Source: an uncultured Pelagibacteraceae bacterium
GTDB lineage: Bacteria > Pseudomonadota > Alphaproteobacteria > Pelagibacterales > AG-422-B15
DNA: 40,632 nt
Direction of reading: 5' to 3'
NCBI GenBank assembly: GCA_902584215.1
Contig: CACHYW010000008.1
Span: forward strand, 1-40,632
Below the pieces are notes generated by a model. It was not told the origin of the DNA and made no database searches. It saw only the letters and a program-made list of their open reading frames with translations. Below, piece by piece: positions 20,090 through 29,843 of the stretch (its first letter is position 1; the number at the start of each line of letters is the position of its first letter). Made by a program: the position numbers and the translations under genes.

Positions 20090-20977
20090 TTAATTTTGCT
20101 GTCTGATAGCGGCATCAACAGTATTTTTTAACAAACACGCGATTGTCATAGGTCCAACACCTCCTGGTACAGGGGTAATTGCTGAAGCAACACTTAATAC
20201 TTCATCAAAATCAACATCACCAACGAGTTTTGTTTTGCCTGGACTTTCCGGATGATCAACGCGATTGATGCCAACATCAATAACGATCGCACCTTCTTTA
20301 ATCCAATCTTTTTTAACCATCAGTGGTCTGCCCACCGCTGCAACAACAATATCTGCTTGCCTGGTAAGTTCTTCAATATTTCTTGTCTTCGAATGCACAA
20401 TAGTCACGGTGCAAGACTCCTCTAAAAGCAATTGCGCCATAGGTTTCCCAACGATATTGGATCTGCCAATAATAACAGCATGCATCCCTTTTAGATCAGC
20501 AACAGATCTTTTTAACATCAAATAACAGCCAAGAGGAGTACACGGAGTAAATGTTTTATTTAAAAGTTCACCACCAATTGAGTTTCTGCCAACGTTTACT
20601 GCATGAAATCCATCTGCATCTTTAATAGGATCAATTGAATCGATAATTGCTCTTGAGTCTATATGTGATGGCAGCGGTAATTGAACCAATATGCCATTCA
20701 CTTTTTCGTCTTTATTTAGATCATCAATAAGCTTTAATAAGTCAGCCTCAGCAACGCTGGCATCTAAAAAATGATCTTCTACATCCATACCAATTTCTTT
20801 AGCCATTTTTGTTTTCGTCTTTACATAAACTTGACTGGCTGGATCTTCACCAACCAAAACAACTGCAAGGGTTGGAACTTTGTTATAATCTTTTTTAAAA
20901 GCCTCTACTTTTACTGCAGTTTCTGCACGCAAATCAGATGCAATTTTTTTCCCATCAATTAATTTATTTTCATCCAT
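20090..20977 (-). CDS. folD: Bifunctional methylenetetrahydrofolate dehydrogenase/cyclohydrolase
   Basis: Interconverts 5,10-methylene- and 10-formyl-tetrahydrofolate, feeding purH and formylation. The 295 residues carry YVKTK with Y51 and catalytic K55, the GILVQLPLP segment, the NADP site GRSNIVGKP and the C-terminal [10 protein letters not shown]. It is 3 bases after yggT; yggT upstream of folD is a recurring alphaproteobacterial order. It is the last gene of the minus-strand run that begins at 23888. Confidence 0.96.
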
Positions 20978-20980
20978 GAA

Positions 20981-21274
20981 TTACAGCGCAATAGTCATAT
21001 AAAAATATTCAAAAAGTAGATTTCTAATAAAATACAAAATCAAAATCAATACTACTGGAGATATATCAATTCCACTGAGATTCGGCAGAAAGTTTCTTAT
21101 AGGGTTAAGCAGTGGATCGGTTAACCTTTTTGTCCCATAATAAACAGCAATAATAATTCTATTCTGTGTATTGAAGATATTCATAGCAATCAACCAGCTA
21201 AAAATGACATTGATGATCAATACCCACGTATAAAGATTGATAACTTGATCAAAGAGAATGATGAGTGAATTCAT
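20981..21274 (-). CDS. YggT family membrane protein
   Basis: A 97-residue inner-membrane protein of the YggT family, with two hydrophobic hairpins (about 3-28 and 66-92) and the conserved LTDPLLNPIRNFLPNLSGIDISP region between them. Family members have been linked to osmotic tolerance and to cell division or shape, but the mechanism is unknown. ATG at 21274 overlaps the amidotransferase stop by 4 bases; folD follows after 3 bases. Confidence 0.88.
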   Translation of the reverse strand: MNSLIILFDQVINLYTWVLIINVIFSWLIAMNIFNTQNRIIIAVYYGTKRLTDPLLNPIRNFLPNLSGIDISPVVLILILYFIRNLLFEYFYMTIAL

Positions 21275-21969
21275 GTATTAATATCTTTCAATAAGTAGTT
21301 ATCTAAAAAAGAGTCTAACCATAAATTTATTTTTTTACCATGTTTAAGTCGATGAGTAAGTTGTTCACGTCGATTTTGTGCACCTTTTTCTTTTAACATA
21401 TAACCAGCATAATATAACCAACGAAGATGCATCTTTAAATTAACCTCAGGATGAAATTGAATAGCTAAAGCATTATTATATCGGAATGCCTGTTCCCTAA
21501 ATAGATCGCCATTAGCTAGGATTTCACATGACTTGGGCACAGTAAAACCTTCTCGGTGCCACTGGAAAAACTTTTTCTGACTTTGGAACATTTTATGGCC
21601 ATCTCCTGTAGGATTGATATCAAAAAAACCAATTTCAAGTGTAAGATCATGAGATTTTTGAACTGACCCACCAAGGTTCTTCGCCAACATTTGAGCGCCT
21701 AAACATATTCCAAGAAACGGCTTATTAGACTCTAACACTTTAGAAATCCAGTCTATCTCGTATTTTATATAATCGAGATCATCATTAACACTTGGCGGAC
21801 CACCATAGATGACCGCTAAATCATGCTTATCCATATTTTCTGGAAGTTTCTCACCCATCACTGGCCTTCTGACATCCAATGTATAGCCACGCTTTCTTAA
21901 TTTAATGCCAACATCACCCGTGCTTGATCTTGGTTGATGAACAACCATTAATGCAGTTTTTTTATTCAT
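21271..21969 (-). CDS. Class I glutamine amidotransferase family protein
   Basis: A 232-residue cytosolic protein with the class I GATase fold. The catalytic triad is complete: C89 in GICLGAQ, and H173/E175 in QFHPE; the oxyanion strand YGGPPS precedes. Stand-alone enzymes of this type act as hydrolases such as gamma-glutamyl hydrolases or as GMP-synthase-like amidotransferases; no synthase partner is next to it, so substrate is unknown. The C-terminal 50 residues are basic and helical. It lies between an SDR (16-base gap) and yggT (4-base overlap). Confidence 0.88.
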   Translation of the reverse strand: MNKKTALMVVHQPRSSTGDVGIKLRKRGYTLDVRRPVMGEKLPENMDKHDLAVIYGGPPSVNDDLDYIKYEIDWISKVLESNKPFLGICLGAQMLAKNLGGSVQKSHDLTLEIGFFDINPTGDGHKMFQSQKKFFQWHREGFTVPKSCEILANGDLFREQAFRYNNALAIQFHPEVNLKMHLRWLYYAGYMLKEKGAQNRREQLTHRLKHGKKINLWLDSFLDNYLLKDINT

Positions 21970-21985: not shown

Positions 21986-22756
21986 CTACATCGCGCTTAA
22001 GCCGCCATCAAGAACAATTTCTGTCCCAGTCATAAATTTGGATTCATCAGATGCTAGATATAAAATGGCATACGATACATCGTCTGTATCGCCAATTTTA
22101 TTCATAGGAATTTGTCTAGCTAATTTGGCAACTGCTTCATCTGCGCCAAAAGCCTGCTTAATAGGATCTAGAATAGGTGTATTCACAAATGCTGGGTGAA
22201 CAGAATTGCAGCGAACTTCAAATCCTTTTTTTGCACAAAACAGAGCCACTGATTTAGAGAGAAGACGAACACCTGCTTTTGAAGAATTATAAGCAGCAGT
22301 ATTCCATCCTGCAACTATACCTGAAATGGATGAGATATTAATAATTGAGCCATGTCCATACTTGCCCATAACTGGAACAGCATATTTACATCCAAGAAAA
22401 ACACTATCAAGATTCACTTGATGTACTTTTTTCCATATATCAAAATCAGTTGATACAACGTCAGCACCAAGACTAATACCTGCACTGTTAACTAAAATAT
22501 TGATTTTACCATGATCAATCTCAGTTTTATTGATTATGTCAATCCAAGACTCTTCTTGGGTGACGTCATGAAATATAGCTTGAAATTGTGACTTACTGAA
22601 ATCACTTAAGCGCTCCGACATTGAGTCTAATACTTCTTGATTTACATCAGTAAGTATAACCTTTGCACCCTCCTCAAGAAGTTTACGTGCCGCAGCAAAT
22701 CCAAGTCCAGAAGCTGCACCTGTAATAATTGCAACTTTGTCTTTTACCCTTCCCAT
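21986..22756 (-). CDS. Classical SDR family oxidoreductase
   Basis: A 256-residue classical short-chain dehydrogenase: TGAASGLG (12-19) for NAD(P), D37 after the second strand suggesting NAD preference, NSAG (90-93), catalytic S143, Y156 and K160 in AAYNSSKAG, and the C-terminal TGTEIVLDGGL. It resembles alcohol or hydroxysteroid dehydrogenases of the glucose-1-dehydrogenase-like group. It begins one base after the YCF48-like gene ends, so it is probably cotranscribed with it, which could link it to the DUF1302/DUF1329 locus. Substrate is unknown. Confidence 0.92.
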   Translation of the reverse strand: MGRVKDKVAIITGAASGLGFAAARKLLEEGAKVILTDVNQEVLDSMSERLSDFSKSQFQAIFHDVTQEESWIDIINKTEIDHGKINILVNSAGISLGADVVSTDFDIWKKVHQVNLDSVFLGCKYAVPVMGKYGHGSIINISSISGIVAGWNTAAYNSSKAGVRLLSKSVALFCAKKGFEVRCNSVHPAFVNTPILDPIKQAFGADEAVAKLARQIPMNKIGDTDDVSYAILYLASDESKFMTGTEIVLDGGLSAM

Positions 22757-22757
22757 C

Positions 22758-23888
22758 TTATCCTAAATCAACAGTAAAATAACTATCCTGCGAATTTGAT
22801 TTATCTGATGTAAAATTTTCATAACATTCAGACATACTGTGCTTTCTAAATCCATTTTCTCCAGCTAATAAAAACTCATCACTACCTAAATATACAATTG
22901 ATGTATTACTCAAGCGATCAGATCTAACGCAAGTTTCAATATTTTTTTTTCTGAATAAATCAACTACTGTGACAGAGCCCCCGTTGCCGCTTATGGCTAT
23001 GCGTCCATCATTCAAAATAATTGCATTAGTTAAACTATTTTTTGAACCAATATATAGTCTTTCAAAAGCAAGGGTTTTACATTCTCCAGAAAAAATTCCA
23101 CTTTCATAACAAGCAAGTGTTGTAATTTTATCATCGGGTATAACATCATCAGGTCCATAATCGTTAATTAATGTGAGGTTACCAGACATACCTAATAAAA
23201 GTGACTGTCCCTCATCTACCTTTATACCAGCCCAATAAGAACCTTCGTAACCAGTTTCCACAGAAAGCCAACTAAGACCCCTGTCATCAGAAAGGTAATA
23301 TTTCCCCAACTCTCCTACAGCATAAGCTTCATTCATTGCAGACTTTCTCCATGCTTGGGAATCAGCATAAGCAAAGTTTAAATGGGGTTGAAATTCATCA
23401 TCATCTACAAATAAATAACCCCAGCTTTTACCCCCATCAGATGTTCTTAATGATAGTGCAAAAGCACCTAACGCAATACCATCATTTTCATCAAACATAT
23501 GAATTGATAACAATGGTGCGTCCCAATCAATATCTTCATATTGTTTAACCCATGTTTTGCCATAATCATTTGAGTGGAGAATAACAGCATCGTGACCAAC
23601 GACCCAACATGATTTTTTTGTGGGACAGCTAAGGTCTGTAATTGTACTGGTGTAAGGAACACTTTCAGCCTGTATCCAAGTCTCACCAAAATCGTCTGAG
23701 TAAACAATTATTCCATGCTCCCCAGCAGCATAGATTCGATCATCAACTTTTTCCATCGCATTCATTAGTGATTTTGATGCAAGAGCAGATTGAGCAGCAT
23801 ATCCGGACTTATAGTTAAAGTTGGAAGATGAAACTGTGGATACAGTTATAAAAAAAATCGCACCTAACGCTGTAAGAATTCTAACCAT
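22758..23888 (-). CDS. YCF48/BNR-repeat exported protein
   Basis: A 376-residue exported protein with a signal peptide (about 1-21). It has beta-propeller repeats of the photosystem-assembly YCF48/BNR type; three clear copies end SDDFGETW, SNDYGKTW and SDDRGLSW, and fainter ones follow. In bacteria without photosystems these proteins are commonly encoded beside DUF1302 and DUF1329 proteins and an MMPL transporter, as a likely periplasmic partner. The first two are present here; the transporter is not. The ATG at 23888 lies just 18 bases beyond a terminator hairpin and no ribosome-binding site is obvious, so its expression may be low relative to the genes before it. Confidence 0.85.
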   Translation of the reverse strand: MVRILTALGAIFFITVSTVSSSNFNYKSGYAAQSALASKSLMNAMEKVDDRIYAAGEHGIIVYSDDFGETWIQAESVPYTSTITDLSCPTKKSCWVVGHDAVILHSNDYGKTWVKQYEDIDWDAPLLSIHMFDENDGIALGAFALSLRTSDGGKSWGYLFVDDDEFQPHLNFAYADSQAWRKSAMNEAYAVGELGKYYLSDDRGLSWLSVETGYEGSYWAGIKVDEGQSLLLGMSGNLTLINDYGPDDVIPDDKITTLACYESGIFSGECKTLAFERLYIGSKNSLTNAIILNDGRIAISGNGGSVTVVDLFRKKNIETCVRSDRLSNTSIVYLGSDEFLLAGENGFRKHSMSECYENFTSDKSNSQDSYFTVDLG

Positions 23889-23906
23889 AAGTTTTTGTTA
23901 AAAAAT

Positions 23907-23939
23907 AAAACCCGACTTAATAAATTCAAGCCGGGTTTT
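23907..23939 (-). terminator. Rho-independent terminator after the DUF1329 gene
   Basis: A 12-base stem (arms 23907-23918 and 23928-23939) with a 9-base loop and one G-T/A-C wobble position; the GC core is CCCGRCTT. On the minus strand it is followed by ATTTTTT. It lies 31 bases past the DUF1329 stop and 18 bases before the YCF48-like start. Because the stem is AT-flanked, it may also work weakly on the plus strand, but no plus-strand gene ends there. Confidence 0.85.
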
Positions 23940-23970
23940 AAATTAAAATTAATTGATGGTAAAGTGTTTA

Positions 23971-25203
23971 TTACCTTGCGTAACGTCTCAAGCCATCAGG
24001 TGTATAGAAGCTAACAGCTTTTTCCTCACCGTTAAAAATCGGTGCAGATGGTTGAATGGCAGGTCCCATTAGGTTTCCACCTGAATACGTTCGAGTTGCA
24101 AAGTCAAATGTATATTCACCTTGAACATTACATATATCATCCGACAACATGCCTGTTCCGCCTAAATTACCGGCCACATGTGTTTGCATATACGTACGCA
24201 TTAGATCTTGATTTCCATCAAACATATCTTGATACACTAGAAGACCTGGTTGACCATCTAAAAAATAAAAAGTTCTAGACTCATAGAGGTGTCTTTGTCC
24301 TGGGCGCAGTTGTGCGTGAACAATGTGAACATCTTTTTCTTCAAATCTTACATAGCTTGGGTCTAAGTGAAATGGAGTATGTGTATCAGCAATTGTATTA
24401 TTAGCTAATGCATCATTCGCAAAAGGAACGATCATACTTTGCTTACCTTCGTAAGACCAATCATACCTATCTTGCGCACCATTAAATCCACCAAACTGGT
24501 CAACTGTAACGATACCGCCACCTGCTGTTGTTAATGTATCGTAAGAAATGTTAGGCGCTCTACGAACTCGTCTTGTTGCTGGATTGTACTGCCACGCTTT
24601 TCTTGGTTGCATATAACTGTCAATAAAGTCATGAACGAGAGTAACTGTACCTGCACTTCTAGGTGGGCCTAAGTTTTTCTGCATGAACAAGGCAAATAAA
24701 TTCTTGTCAGCATACATTGTTTTTGTTCTTGGATTTGTTGGGAAAGAAATTGACGTTTCTTGTTGTCCCAAAGTAATAGAACCATCAGGCTTCACGTTTG
24801 TAGAAGATTGAACTCTTTCAATTGCACTAATCTCCCCAGCATACATACGATAATTCCAAACAAAGTGTTGAGCTTGACTTGGATCAGGGAAAGGTGTCTG
24901 ACCAAAGTTTGGTACCTCAATACCTTCATTGTCGTTTACCATAGTGCCGTTTGATTGGGTGATAGCTGCAATATCAGGATCAGTTGCACAGCTTGGACTA
25001 TCCTCATATACATCAATTCTGTATGAGTCAGGATATTGAGCAAACATATTCATTTGTCCTGGATTTAGCATGGTAGCATACTCAGCAACATTTGCAGATG
25101 TTATTGAGTATTTAACGTGTCCATCAGCAGATGCAGACGATACTGAAAGTGCCAACACAGACGTTAGTGTTATTATTATTTTTTTAATGTTCATTTTATA
25201 CAT
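23971..25203 (-). CDS. DUF1329 family exported protein
   Basis: A 410-residue protein with a signal peptide (1-26, ASA before DG). The mature part matches DUF1329, a family with a LolA-like outer-membrane lipoprotein-sorting fold in predictions: recognised segments are SSTNVKPDG, the region KAWQYNPATRRVRRAPNISYD, and YLDGQPGLLVYQDMFD. Start at 25203 is fixed by AAGGGAAGG at 25211-25219, 7 bases upstream; a second ATG three codons in is too far from it. It follows the DUF1302 gene by 18 bases and ends at a terminator. The partnership points to handling of a hydrophobic compound at the outer membrane; the compound is unknown. Confidence 0.88.
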   Translation of the reverse strand: MYKMNIKKIIITLTSVLALSVSSASADGHVKYSITSANVAEYATMLNPGQMNMFAQYPDSYRIDVYEDSPSCATDPDIAAITQSNGTMVNDNEGIEVPNFGQTPFPDPSQAQHFVWNYRMYAGEISAIERVQSSTNVKPDGSITLGQQETSISFPTNPRTKTMYADKNLFALFMQKNLGPPRSAGTVTLVHDFIDSYMQPRKAWQYNPATRRVRRAPNISYDTLTTAGGGIVTVDQFGGFNGAQDRYDWSYEGKQSMIVPFANDALANNTIADTHTPFHLDPSYVRFEEKDVHIVHAQLRPGQRHLYESRTFYFLDGQPGLLVYQDMFDGNQDLMRTYMQTHVAGNLGGTGMLSDDICNVQGEYTFDFATRTYSGGNLMGPAIQPSAPIFNGEEKAVSFYTPDGLRRYAR

Positions 25204-25221
25204 TATTTTACCTTCCCTTAA

Positions 25222-28026
25222 TTAAAATGAATGAGTTACTGAAGCTGAGACATAATCTCTATCAGAATTAGTGTTATCCTCAAAATCTCCTAATTCAGCA
25301 ACGTAGTTCAGTTTCATGGTTGTACCACTGTTAGTGAACGAAGTTCCCAAAGTTACTTTTGCTTCACCTTCTACCCATCCACCAATAGATGATGGCGCAT
25401 TTCCTATGATGTCATAATCAAGACCAACGGAAGGCGAGAATGTCCAAGGAGAATTGTTAAAGTTAAAGTAGTTTAGTGACCCTCTAATTCGTGTTGTTAC
25501 AGATAAATCATCTGGTCCAGAATTATTTTCACAATACCCATTACCAAACAAGCCGTTAGATTGAACAGCTAAAGATGAAGTACCGGCTACATCAAGACAT
25601 CCACCGCCAACTACATCATGACCATCAGCTTGATGGCTGGTCTGAACTAATCCTTGACCATGATCATAATCCGGTAGATACAACGCGCCAATTTCCAGGA
25701 GCAGGCTTCCTCCGTCAGCACCCGCATTTTGAGCTACAGGATCTGAAGCAGTATAGTTTCTGATACCTAGTAAATCTAACGACCAAACATCGTGTTCAGC
25801 TGTACCATCACAAACCGCATAACCTGGCATTTCTACAGACGTTTTACCTGTTGCAGAAGATATGTCACAATTAGGCTGTGATGACCATTTTTGCAAATTC
25901 ACTGCGTTACTTGCAATGATAGCCCCTGCATTAGCACCAGCTGTAGCAAGCGATGCTAGACTTTGAATAACAGTACCTCCTGATGAGTCATAAACATTCA
26001 ACAGAAGTTGAGGAACTGAAATTTGAAAAGGAAAATCAGGTCTGTATGTTAGCTCGGCGTTTGTTGCCCATTCACCAATACCAGTAGAAATCGAAGCTCC
26101 AAAAGTCTGGATATCTTCAGGATAATAAAGTTGGTACCTTGCAGCGTTACCAAAGCCAAGAGTTGCCAAAGCACCGTTTGTTGCACCAGTCGCTTGAGCA
26201 TGAACGGCTGCTTGCGCTGCCGGACCACCAACTAGTGGGTTAGCATCATATGTTGGAGTTTCTTTCAACTGATCAGCTTGGTAAGCTAACAATCCTAGAT
26301 TATTAAAAGTTTCATAACATACCTCAGGATCATGTAGATATCCTAGAGTTGTGTCGGCATCTGTAGCTGCACTAGAGAATGCTCCATAAGCAGCTGCAGC
26401 GCCTGCACCAGATTTGTAAATAAGACCGCATATTAAGTCATTATATGCAATACTTGCTTGAACTTGCTCAAAAGCTGTTACATCTGCATCGGTAAAATCT
26501 CTAGTCGCATCTAAGACAGAATACATTGTGTAAAGAGTTGTTGCATATCCGTCTTCAATAGCAAGCATTCTAATTCGCGGAGAATTACTGTGTGAATTGT
26601 TAAAATATAATCCCCATTCAACACCAGTTCCAACGTCATCTACGTAACCGCTTAGGTTAAAACCATATTGCCCAGAATCATCAGCAAACGCATCTGGAGC
26701 ACGTCTAACAGCTACAAGACCCGCAGTATTATTAAGACCATCAAACTGAGAGCTAAGTCTCAATAAAGAGGCATTAATTTCTGCGTCTGTAAGAGCAACA
26801 CCTGTTTGTTGAGCACCAACTGAAGTTACAAGACCACCAGCAGCAGCCGCTCCTGCACCAATAAGGCCTGTAATGAATGCATCTGTATCAGCATAGCTTG
26901 TACCGTTCTGTAAATTGTAACCCTGTCTGGCCAGAGAGTAACCACCTCCGCCATATGCTGCATAGAGACCATAGAGAGTTGCCTCAGGACCTGCTGTTGG
27001 AGTACCAGTTCCAGTTGCCGCGTCTATGCCTGCCCACAATTGAGTATCCTTACAATGTCCACCGATACCGTCAGCAAAACATGTTGCGGCATCATGCCTG
27101 TTTCCACCAAAAGGAATTAGAGGGTTCTCTCTGTAATTGGGTGAATTTTTAAGTTGAGTCGTTGAATGTCTTCCCGCAAAGTCACTACCGTAAAATGAGT
27201 GAGCAACATCGATTTCAACTTCTTTTTGTTCAAGCTGATAATAAGCTTCTGCGGTAACACCGCCATCTAAGTATGCTGTAACGCCCATCATTGCTTGAGG
27301 GAGTAGAGCATCTTTTACTTGCGCTCCTGGAGATCTTAAGATTGGAAGTGATACAGGGTTAACTACATTAACACCAATTGGTAAGAGTGCAGTCACACCT
27401 TGAGATTGAACGTAATTACCAAGAGTAAAAGAAATGTCATCTGTCAGAGGGGCTTGAATGTATGCATTTCCTATTTTATATTGGTTTTCAAATTCACTTT
27501 CCATTTTGCTTGTAAATGCTCTGAAAGCCGGAGTCGTTATATCTAATGCGGCATTATAATAAGCAAGTCCAGATAAATTTATTTTAACACCATTTGCATT
27601 GGTAGCATCAAAACCAACTGCTAAAGAGTTACCAGCATCAAAGATGTCACCTTTATCAAAGTTTAATTTACCATCATCTTGGTTTGAGTTTACTCGCTCT
27701 ATAGATTTTGTTGATGTATTGCCGTAAGCATCTGTTTCAAAAATATTACAACCACCATTACCATTATCAGGATTGTATCCAACGTGCGATGTAAAATTTG
27801 AACGGTCTTCAAGGGTACCGTTTTTTGCTAAGCTGTCTCCTGAAATGAGTCTGCAATCGTTATCTTCTGTTCTCATAGAAAAACCAGAAGACACAGTTGT
27901 TGTTAAAGTTCCTGTAAATCCACCTAGAGATACCTGTTCAGCTTTTACGGAAATAGTAGCCATTTGAAAAAGTGATATAGCAAATAGACACTTTACAAAC
28001 GATCTAAAAATAGTGTTTCGTGACAT
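25222..28026 (-). CDS. DUF1302 family large outer-membrane protein
   Basis: A 934-residue exported protein with a signal peptide (1-29, VKA before EQ) and a beta-barrel pattern ending in VTHSF, the terminal Phe expected for BAM insertion. The start GFTGTLTTTVSSGFSMRTED and the NGNGG and GDIFDAGNS segments fit DUF1302 proteins. About ten cysteines are scattered through predicted loops, unusual for a porin-like protein, and Ala/Gly-rich tracts lie near 390-405 and 540-555. AGAGGGG at 28034-28040 is the strongest ribosome-binding site in the window. Probably a channel or receptor for a hydrophobic substrate together with the DUF1329 protein; the substrate cannot be read. Confidence 0.87.
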   Translation of the reverse strand: MSRNTIFRSFVKCLFAISLFQMATISVKAEQVSLGGFTGTLTTTVSSGFSMRTEDNDCRLISGDSLAKNGTLEDRSNFTSHVGYNPDNGNGGCNIFETDAYGNTSTKSIERVNSNQDDGKLNFDKGDIFDAGNSLAVGFDATNANGVKINLSGLAYYNAALDITTPAFRAFTSKMESEFENQYKIGNAYIQAPLTDDISFTLGNYVQSQGVTALLPIGVNVVNPVSLPILRSPGAQVKDALLPQAMMGVTAYLDGGVTAEAYYQLEQKEVEIDVAHSFYGSDFAGRHSTTQLKNSPNYRENPLIPFGGNRHDAATCFADGIGGHCKDTQLWAGIDAATGTGTPTAGPEATLYGLYAAYGGGGYSLARQGYNLQNGTSYADTDAFITGLIGAGAAAAGGLVTSVGAQQTGVALTDAEINASLLRLSSQFDGLNNTAGLVAVRRAPDAFADDSGQYGFNLSGYVDDVGTGVEWGLYFNNSHSNSPRIRMLAIEDGYATTLYTMYSVLDATRDFTDADVTAFEQVQASIAYNDLICGLIYKSGAGAAAAYGAFSSAATDADTTLGYLHDPEVCYETFNNLGLLAYQADQLKETPTYDANPLVGGPAAQAAVHAQATGATNGALATLGFGNAARYQLYYPEDIQTFGASISTGIGEWATNAELTYRPDFPFQISVPQLLLNVYDSSGGTVIQSLASLATAGANAGAIIASNAVNLQKWSSQPNCDISSATGKTSVEMPGYAVCDGTAEHDVWSLDLLGIRNYTASDPVAQNAGADGGSLLLEIGALYLPDYDHGQGLVQTSHQADGHDVVGGGCLDVAGTSSLAVQSNGLFGNGYCENNSGPDDLSVTTRIRGSLNYFNFNNSPWTFSPSVGLDYDIIGNAPSSIGGWVEGEAKVTLGTSFTNSGTTMKLNYVAELGDFEDNTNSDRDYVSASVTHSF

Positions 28027-28186: not shown

Positions 28187-28900
28187 TTATTTTAACTTCA
28201 AATTTTTGATTATTCCAAGCATTCCTTTTTCTGACGGGTCTGAAGAATAATGAACATTATATCCAAGTTTTTGGGCAAATCCACCAACACGCTTACTGAC
28301 ACATATATAATGAATTCTTTTGAGACAAGATTTTGAAACCTTATCTAATTTGCAGAGCTCAAGAAAAACCATAAGAGAAAACTTAGAGAAAAATACAGCC
28401 GCAGAAAATTTGTCATTTTTTAAATTCATAACAACAGACTTTTTTAATTTTTTAACTTTGAAAGTTTCATAGACCCTGACTAATGTAATTTTACATTTCA
28501 TTTTTTTTAACGATTCAACAAGCTCTTTATTATATACATTTGAACATAAAAATTTCACGTCACTTAATCTATTTATCTTCGACTTTAATTTATTGATTAA
28601 GTCAGCACTGTCTTTTGCAGAAATCAATATGTTTTGACATCCCAATTGTTTGAGGCGTTGAGTTGTTTTTTCACCAATGACAATAAATTCATTTTTTTTA
28701 CAACGTTCTATAATTTTACTCATGATAAGATAATCTATAGATCTTGGACTCGTGATAAGTATAGAACAACTACCTAAAGAAATTTGTTTTTTAAAAATTT
28801 TAAATTTTGATAGTTCTTGAACCTCAGAATTAATTTTTAATTTTTCTAATCTTTTTTGAAACTCTAAAGAGTTTTTTCTAGGGCGTGTAATTAAAATCAC
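28187..28900 (-). CDS. hemD: Uroporphyrinogen-III synthase
   Basis: Closes and inverts ring D of hydroxymethylbilane to give uroporphyrinogen III. Sequence conservation in this family is low; the N-terminal ILITRPRKNS, the ITSPRSI strand and the C-terminal half with AAVFFSKFS (SPS-like) fit HemD, and position directly after hemC confirms it. The start is GTG at 28900, 23 bases inside hemC. The 237 residues are very Lys-rich, in line with the AT bias. Confidence 0.85.
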   Translation of the reverse strand: MILITRPRKNSLEFQKRLEKLKINSEVQELSKFKIFKKQISLGSCSILITSPRSIDYLIMSKIIERCKKNEFIVIGEKTTQRLKQLGCQNILISAKDSADLINKLKSKINRLSDVKFLCSNVYNKELVESLKKMKCKITLVRVYETFKVKKLKKSVVMNLKNDKFSAAVFFSKFSLMVFLELCKLDKVSKSCLKRIHYICVSKRVGGFAQKLGYNVHYSSDPSEKGMLGIIKNLKLK

Positions 28901-29843
28901 TTTTTAAATTGTCCAGTTCATTTATTTTCGTTAGACCTACGACGTCTATAATCTCCTTAACTAGTTCGTCACATAACGATAAATAGTTTTCTTTTAAACC
29001 TTCCTTTAATTTTTTAAAAATTTTATTCCCTAGATGATCAAACATTTCAAATTTTAGCGATATGTTATTTTCGTTTATATTTGCATAAATTGAAACAGGA
29101 CTATTGCAGTTTGCATTTATATTTCTTAAAACTTTTCTTTCAGCCATACACTCAGTTTGAGTTTTGAGATCATTAATGGGAGCAAATATATTTTTTATCT
29201 CACTGTTTTTGAGGGCTTGTACACCAACAGCTCCCTGGCAGGCGGCTGGCAGAAATAAATTATGCTCTAATACTTCAGTAACTAAATGATCTAGATTTAA
29301 TCGGGCCAATCCCGCAAAGCTTAATATGATAGCATCATATTCATGATTTCTAAGTTTTTGAATGCGCGTATCAACATTGCCTCTAAGTAACTTGATTGAT
29401 AAATCTTTTCGTAAACTCAAAACTTGTGACCTTCTGCGAATAGAACTGGTGCCAATTACACTACCTGTTGGCAAATCCATAAAACTTTTTCCTGAATTGC
29501 TTATTATTGCGTCATTTGTTTTATGTCTTTGCATCCAACAAATAATGTCAAGATCTGGGTAAGCGTCTTGAGCAGGTACATCTTTCATTGAATGCACGCC
29601 AATATCAATTTTACCCGACATAATCTGTTCCTCAATTTCTTTAATAAATAGACCTTTCCCACCAATTTGATCCAGTCGATGAGTATTATGGATATCTCCA
29701 GTTGTTTTGATTGTCTTTATATTAAAGGTATCTTCACTTAACTTTGGGTCTTGTTTGAGCAATGCCTGAATCAAAAGATTAGTCTGAGATTTAGATAAGT
29801 TACTGCTGCGGATTCCAACTACAATTTTTGGCAATTCAGACAT
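28878..29843 (-). CDS. hemC: Porphobilinogen deaminase (hydroxymethylbilane synthase)
   Basis: Polymerises four porphobilinogens on a dipyrromethane cofactor. The 321 residues keep HSMKDVP with catalytic D88, GTSSIRRRSQ, RGNVDTR and the AACQGAVG segment. The cofactor-bearing Cys is C246, in NANCNSPV rather than the common GGC-x-x-P context. It overlaps hemD and is divergent from tsaD across 91 bases, an order conserved in Alphaproteobacteria. Confidence 0.95.
   Translation of the reverse strand: MSELPKIVVGIRSSNLSKSQTNLLIQALLKQDPKLSEDTFNIKTIKTTGDIHNTHRLDQIGGKGLFIKEIEEQIMSGKIDIGVHSMKDVPAQDAYPDLDIICWMQRHKTNDAIISNSGKSFMDLPTGSVIGTSSIRRRSQVLSLRKDLSIKLLRGNVDTRIQKLRNHEYDAIILSFAGLARLNLDHLVTEVLEHNLFLPAACQGAVGVQALKNSEIKNIFAPINDLKTQTECMAERKVLRNINANCNSPVSIYANINENNISLKFEMFDHLGNKIFKKLKEGLKENYLSLCDELVKEIIDVVGLTKINELDNLKSDFNYTP

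Follow-up and report, generated by a model that had tools for sequence, protein, structure and literature searches.

The closest described relative of the locus treated here is AmeABCD of Castellaniella defragrans, an efflux system for apolar monoterpenes that is formed by a DUF1302 protein, a DUF1329 protein, a COG4447 protein and a resistance-nodulation-division (RND) pump of the HAE3 type (PMC6394551). In Pseudomonas putida, the genes PP_0765 and PP_0766 share a Tween 20 phenotype with PP_2018 and PP_2019 (PMC10866462), and in Methylococcus capsulatus the BstABC system transports sterols; in the passages of that report considered here BstB is placed in pfam12974 and DUF1302 is not named (PMC10942540). 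Here we describe a DUF1302-DUF1329-YCF48 locus located between positions 22758 and 28026 of a stretch of 40,632 nucleotides (the window) that represents contig CACHYW010000008.1 of an uncultured Pelagibacteraceae bacterium (assembly GCA_902584215.1, 1.10 Mb, 74% complete; G000). The genomes of the order were divided into the family of this organism (f1), which we presume may correspond to SAR11 clade II, and its sister family (f2). The results make it probable that the locus is the outer half of a split AmeABCD-type trans-envelope transporter for a hydrophobic molecule, whose AmeD-type pump is encoded elsewhere in the genome and would act in trans.

In the window, the genes are found on the minus strand in the order hemC, hemD, DUF1302, DUF1329, a hairpin, YCF48, an SDR oxidoreductase, a class I glutamine amidotransferase (GATase) and folD. 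The DUF1302 gene (25222-28026) encodes an AmeA-like putative outer-membrane β-barrel of 934 residues with a signal-like N-terminus (PF06980, 257 bits, E 4.5e-76, cut-off 23.2). It is followed by the gene of the AmeB-like protein DUF1329, a predicted periplasmic LolA-like protein of 410 residues (23971-25203; PF07044, 276 bits, E 7e-82, cut-off 23.1), whose relatives have N-termini that, judged by eye, are signal-like. Past an intrinsic-terminator-like hairpin (23906-23940) comes the AmeC-like YCF48 protein, of 376 residues and likewise with a signal-like N-terminus (22758-23888; PF14870, PSII_BNR, 47.9 bits, E 1.4e-12, cut-off 27). The three families of the AmeABCD cassette other than the pump are thus present with scores above their Pfam cut-offs, and in the same order as in C. 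defragrans; unlike there, the pump is on a different contig, beside an AurF-like gene, the gene row is interrupted by a hairpin, an SDR and a GATase follow, and DUF1302 has 934 residues instead of 605 (PMC6394551). The arrangement also recalls PP_0765/PP_0766 of P. putida, where the locus numbers place the DUF1302-DUF1329 pair apart from the RND pump; in that organism, however, a gene for a periplasmic protein is numbered by the pump, whereas here YCF48 stays with the pair (PMC10866462). With BstABC the likeness is one of description only: there, too, a greasy molecule is handled by an MMPL pump that has a periplasmic part and one associated with the outer membrane (PMC10942540). No PDB sequence matched DUF1302 or DUF1329 at E up to 1. 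A structure predicted for DUF1302 from 11 sequences shows paired strands at low confidence (mean pLDDT 47.8), and the matches listed by Foldseek against the PDB (E up to 0.001) are all outer-membrane barrels or their complexes, MOMP, FadL, OpdK and AlgE among them; because of the low pLDDT, these matches are read as indicating an outer-membrane barrel in general.

The genome of this organism contains two MMPL genes, neither of which is at the locus. One encodes a HAE3-type pump of 895 residues (G000:C11:10725-13409, contig C11) and is divergent from an AurF-like gene; its best NCBIfam match is TIGR00921 (HAE3) with 191 bits, below the cut-off of 351.9 set for that model. The other, of 762 residues, lies beside a LolA_like protein and a 397-residue protein without a Pfam match (G000:C29:498-4777, L038). 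A reading of the window made from its letters and open reading frames (the sequence-only reading) had described the locus as deprived of its usual transporter, had asked whether an MMPL gene with linked DUF1302 or DUF1329 paralogues existed elsewhere in the genome, and had named an MMPL gene just outside the locus of close relatives as evidence that would speak against it. At the locus itself this description stands, as neither MMPL protein found a match in any of 40 loci of the genus (up to 20 kb, several shortened by contig ends). For the genome it does not, in view of the unlinked HAE3 pump. The LolA_like protein beside the contig C29 gene matches DUF1329 weakly, with 46.6 bits. The C11-type pump is full-length in 46 of the 53 f1 genomes, and a fragment at a contig end brings the count to 47/53; it was detected in none of the 194 f2 genomes, with a best f2 score of 45 bits. 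DUF1302 is distributed in the same manner, with 46/53 f1 genomes and 0/194 f2 genomes. Ten f1 pumps that were compared have 887-921 residues (for instance L037:6726-9413), approximately 100 more than most pumps of canonical clusters, and the unlinked pumps of G262, G248, G369 and G294 are likewise long; in the f1 pump the extra residues seem to fall between about 575 and 712.

Given that the contrast between f1 and f2 may be the result of a single event, a wider survey was made at the level of the class. DUF1302 is matched in 46 of 288 genomes, that of the window included. In ten clusters DUF1302, DUF1329, YCF48 and HAE3 occur together (L157, L158, L159, L162, L163, L166, L170, L172, L187 and L191), and ten further loci show DUF1302-DUF1329-YCF48 with no pump at the locus (L165, L167, L168, L169, L171, L175, L182, L183, L184 and L192). 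With a profile of the f1 pump, the ten canonical clusters had pump scores of 547-815 bits, full-length pumps located away from such clusters had 826-1045 bits, and the only three other MMPL proteins with any match had at most 42 bits; the pump of L188, an eleventh and divergent linked cluster, scored 308 bits. By comparison with the pumps of the ten clusters of AmeABCD layout, the genome of the window therefore has a pump of their lineage. In a quick tree with long outgroup branches, the unlinked pumps of the class and the f1 pumps form one clade (SH-aLRT 99). Forty genomes were then chosen (20 of the 45 other genomes with DUF1302; 17 listed class genomes with no match, 222 more being unlisted; and three of f2) and searched with the pump alignment: an AmeD-type pump is present in 17/20 genomes with DUF1302 versus 1/20 without it (Fisher 4e-7), and leaving out three of the 17 that were already known as linked gives 14/17. 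A divergent AurF-like gene adjoins the pump in 28 of 29 f1 loci, the contig ending at that point in the 29th, and in 7/13 other genomes (7/19 loci: G353, G446, G522, G373, G254, G248 and G369); two of the six remaining genomes are cut there by contig starts. In G369 (L192) another AurF-like gene, below the Pfam cut-off, is found 3' of YCF48, so that AurF, being next to the pump and also after YCF48, bridges the two halves. Other Alphaproteobacteria thus show the same split, with the pump elsewhere and often beside AurF.

The block is conserved beyond the window. The order from hemC (28878-29843) to folD (20090-20977) is kept in the 40 genus loci as far as the contigs extend and hemD can be recognised, and the distant genome G294 has hemC-hemD-DUF1302-DUF1329-YCF48-SDR-GATase-folD-argG. 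In five folD regions of f2, hemC is near folD in four and argG in four, and none of them (0/5) contains DUF1302, DUF1329, YCF48 or the GATase; together with the order in G294, this indicates that the stretch from DUF1302 to the GATase behaves as a unit. The SDR (21986-22756, 256 residues) is directly 3' of YCF48, with a spacing of 1 base in the window and of -1 to 6 bases across 36 loci, and the GATase (21271-21969) is the final gene of the block. The suggestion that the SDR takes the place of the transporter is not supported, given that a pump of the right lineage is encoded elsewhere and that SDR and GATase form a fixed block after YCF48 also in G294. The accompanying idea of a metabolic link survives in a weak form: five further unlinked loci (L167, L168, L171, L182 and L184) encode a similar SDR (306-328 bits) at most 4 kb from YCF48, accompanied in L167 by an acyl-CoA dehydrogenase and two enoyl-CoA hydratases, and the AurF-like gene is beside the pump. 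The SDR, AurF and, in L167, the acyl-CoA enzymes hint at a modification of the transported molecule. Among the DUF1302 genes surveyed, that of G294 encodes 1336 residues (L175:8762-12772), G068 has two (contigs C9 and C18), and in L071:5823-8664 (SAG-MED32) the gene is spread over two overlapping frames, which may mean that it is broken or that the sequence contains an error. In addition to the DUF1329 gene of the locus, the genome of the window has an orphan one of 429 residues (G000:C2:19372-20661, L036:7373-8662); the search of the genus gave full-length copies of this kind at 30 loci, and it is closer than the copy at the locus to DUF1329 of most class clusters. Between folD and argG, a second variable spot is apparent, with approximately 0.8-2.6 kb of extra DNA in L083, L091, L095, L102, L110 and L113.

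A distinctive feature of the locus is the hairpin that separates DUF1329 from YCF48. It reads from 23940 to 23906, with a stem of 15 pairs, a loop of 5 and the tract TTTTTT, and ends 17 bases before the YCF48 ATG. Its stem is by far the longest among seven terminator-like sites in the 10 kb scanned, a number of sites that is not above shuffled sequence (5.4, sd 2.4), and the stem pattern occurs only once in the 1.1 Mb of the genome; within the window, no Rfam family matched at its gathering score. The hairpin is found in 38 of the 38 genus loci that hold both flanking genes, the window included (L117, L120 and L046 do not have both), and among random 115-base windows of the same loci, some of which may include the hairpin, 4/820 score at least as high as the weakest one. 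By its conservation it is more than a chance structure. Across the genus the stem is nearly constant and the loop variable; in L094 (A-T to G-C) and L106 (C-G to T-A) both sides of a stem pair have changed. Loci of other genera (L144, L145, L146 and L148) have a hairpin with a T tract at the same position, in L144 and L146 with a stem unrelated in sequence to that of the genus. Shine-Dalgarno-like motifs precede DUF1302 in 35/36 loci and DUF1329 in 36/36, versus 7/36 for YCF48 and 11/36 for the SDR, with the proviso that for DUF1302 the script chose a motif-bearing start among several ATGs, which favours that count. Both the terminator-like hairpin and the restriction of strong ribosome-binding sites to the first two genes had been pointed out in the sequence-only reading, together with the gene order and the single base before the SDR, and all of these were borne out, the first two throughout the genus. 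Its further proposal of abundant outer-membrane proteins and little YCF48 is, as far as the dosage is concerned, plausible because this pattern of hairpin and ribosome-binding sites is conserved. Hairpin and split layout are also associated: where DUF1329 and YCF48 are adjacent, the hairpin is present in 14/15 unlinked and 2/10 linked loci (Fisher 0.0003), a p-value that overstates the case since by family the counts are 4/5 and 1/7. This comparison omits L160, whose contig ends just past YCF48 and which would give 14/16 if taken as unlinked, and the loci lacking an adjacent pair, among them L161, L164, L173, L174, L185, L186, L188-L190 and L193-L195. For the 16 hairpin-bearing loci, 0 to 10 of 300 random windows from the same locus scored equally high.

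The DUF1302 gene itself is a hypervariable cassette, newly found here. Its divergence was compared with that of other genes after omitting proteins shorter than 75% of the window protein, which left 31-38 of 40 rows per gene. When core identity is taken as the mean of argG and rlmN, its rank correlation with the identity of the gene is 0.01 for DUF1302, 0.73 for tsaD and 0.78 for folD, and reaches 0.80 for the pump (19 genomes). In 40 pairs with core identity of at least 0.975, folD has a median identity of 0.96 and DUF1302, available in 38 of them, one of 0.38 (range 0.27-0.79); two genomes may agree to 99% at argG and rlmN and yet have DUF1302 proteins just 27% identical. The exchanged stretch includes, as its upstream part, hemD (28187-28900 in the window), which is strongly divergent among close relatives and approximately 25% identical between L096 and L114, two loci 99% identical at argG and rlmN. 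The DNA of these two is 91-92% identical across 5.3 kb on the upstream side and 10 kb on the downstream side; in between, homology disappears 5 bases short of the hemC end and returns 90 bases ahead of the DUF1302 stop. The same borders were seen in many of 51 close pairs whose DUF1302 genes are divergent, pairs that share genomes and so are not independent. Homology is lost no more than 25 bases from the hemC stop codon in 35 of them and returns in the final 120 bases of DUF1302 in 38, with both borders in 27. A threshold of 50% identity defines eight allele classes in 37 rows. A core clade was available for 35 of them; among these, both large clades contain classes 0, 1 and 2, and class 3 is present in the largest clade and in one represented by a single genome. 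Likewise, the 18 bases before the DUF1302 start are identical in L099, L100, L108 and L111, loci from two different core clades. The sharp borders, and the spread of allele classes over more than one core clade, may reflect exchange through the flanks by homologous recombination; chimaeric assemblies could imitate single cases of replacement, repeated borders hardly. According to the provisional and weak structural model, mean conservation is 0.48 in predicted strands and 0.32 in other residues, and the two longest inter-strand stretches, which are presumably outer loops, belong to the least conserved parts (0.21 and 0.23), a 38-residue one having 0.62. As in the replacement flexible genomic islands, of which the O-chain cluster of Pelagibacterales is an example, alternative surface-determining DNA lies between conserved flanks in close relatives; unlike that island, which is a polysaccharide gene cluster, here hemD and DUF1302 are divergent homologous alleles (PMC11898729).

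By analogy with AmeABCD and the P. putida genes (PMC6394551, PMC10866462), the pump, DUF1329, YCF48 and the DUF1302 barrel would move a hydrophobic molecule between the membranes. The AmeD-type HAE3/MMPL pump, energised like other RND proteins, would work in trans; DUF1329 would ferry the molecule across the periplasm, YCF48 would be a periplasmic accessory and DUF1302 the barrel of the transporter in the outer membrane. It could be argued instead that the three proteins, with the SDR and the GATase, form a passive route of uptake and processing that employs no RND pump, as would agree with the lack of an MMPL match at all 40 genus loci and with the fixed position of SDR and GATase 3' of YCF48 here and in G294; we regard this as unlikely, as AmeD-type pumps accompany DUF1302 in 17/20 of the chosen genomes and occur in 1/20 of those without it. 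Even less probable is that the partner is the 762-residue MMPL protein of contig C29. Its LolA_like neighbour is a distant relative of DUF1329, which gives this idea some appeal, but the protein already has a periplasmic neighbour of its own and obtains 42 bits with the f1 pump profile, a score on which it was set aside. Several observations weigh against the split-transporter interpretation, beyond the possible single event behind the f1/f2 contrast. Six f1 genomes, all incomplete, have DUF1302 and no pump (G005, G007, G008, G015, G021 and G027), and seven have the pump and no DUF1302 (G004, G022, G070, G082, G084, G089 and G100); all of the latter except G022 are at most 79% complete, and in G004 DUF1329 stands at a contig start. 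G022, of the same genus and 93% complete, has the pump and the AurF-like gene with no DUF1302 match and no close SDR, which may be due to a gap or to a true loss. In the class, G262 has a pump and no DUF1302 match, G258, G377 and G447 have DUF1302 and no pump, the pump of the DUF1302 cluster in G380 scores only 308 bits, and the pump of G294 has no AurF neighbour. As for the hairpin, G294 combines the block and an unlinked pump without it, and in 5/10 canonical clusters fewer than 25 bases separate DUF1329 from YCF48, so that it would hardly fit there. In addition, the class and family counts treat related genomes as independent.

In the split-transporter interpretation, the strong ribosome-binding sites and the terminator would make the outer pair abundant and YCF48 scarce. 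A possible, less favoured, view of the hairpin is that it stabilises or processes the 3' end of the mRNA, or coincides in part with a promoter from which YCF48 would be transcribed almost without a leader, instead of being a (partial) terminator: YCF48 begins 8-31 bases beyond it, mostly without a Shine-Dalgarno motif, and the stem sequence of the genus is more constant than a terminator needs. The loci L144 and L146, of another genus, which keep hairpin and T tract with an unrelated stem, speak against this view. With regard to DUF1302, relaxed constraint or fast drift could have been mistaken for an exchange of maintained alleles, and it is true that hemD is still divergent (median identity 0.36) where DUF1302 is at least 50% identical; nevertheless, the sharp borders of homology near the stop codons of hemC and DUF1302, the three allele classes shared by both large core clades, and the lack of correlation with core identity in DUF1302 as against the pump make such an origin improbable. 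The port would then be exchanged among related species as a hemD-DUF1302 cassette, and a pump encoded separately would tolerate this exchange.

In passages on SAR11 hypervariable regions (PMC7318151, PMC11898729) nothing was seen on this locus, no title or abstract opening on DUF1302, DUF1329 or SAR11 with DUF1302 describes such a split or swapping locus, and a survey of unknown domains in marine metagenomes names DUF1329 once (PMC3597751). From the present analysis, DUF1302-DUF1329-YCF48 loci that have no MMPL gene gain a testable partner, an AmeD-type pump often located by an AurF-like gene. A putative hydrophobe-transport system is placed in one SAR11 family and, as judged by DUF1302, is absent in 194 sister-family genomes. 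A barrel that is exchanged in this way suggests a target at the cell surface, most simply for phages. It is tentatively proposed that the DUF1302 port is a principal diversifying surface protein of this SAR11 family, that its several old allele classes are kept by negative frequency-dependent selection, most likely through phage adsorption, that species trade them in the form of a hemD-DUF1302 cassette, and that the split layout, with the pump elsewhere and the transcript ended after the outer pair, lets one conserved pump serve any port allele. The allele swapping of a single outer-membrane gene could thereby matter for the question of which phages are able to infect very abundant marine bacteria.

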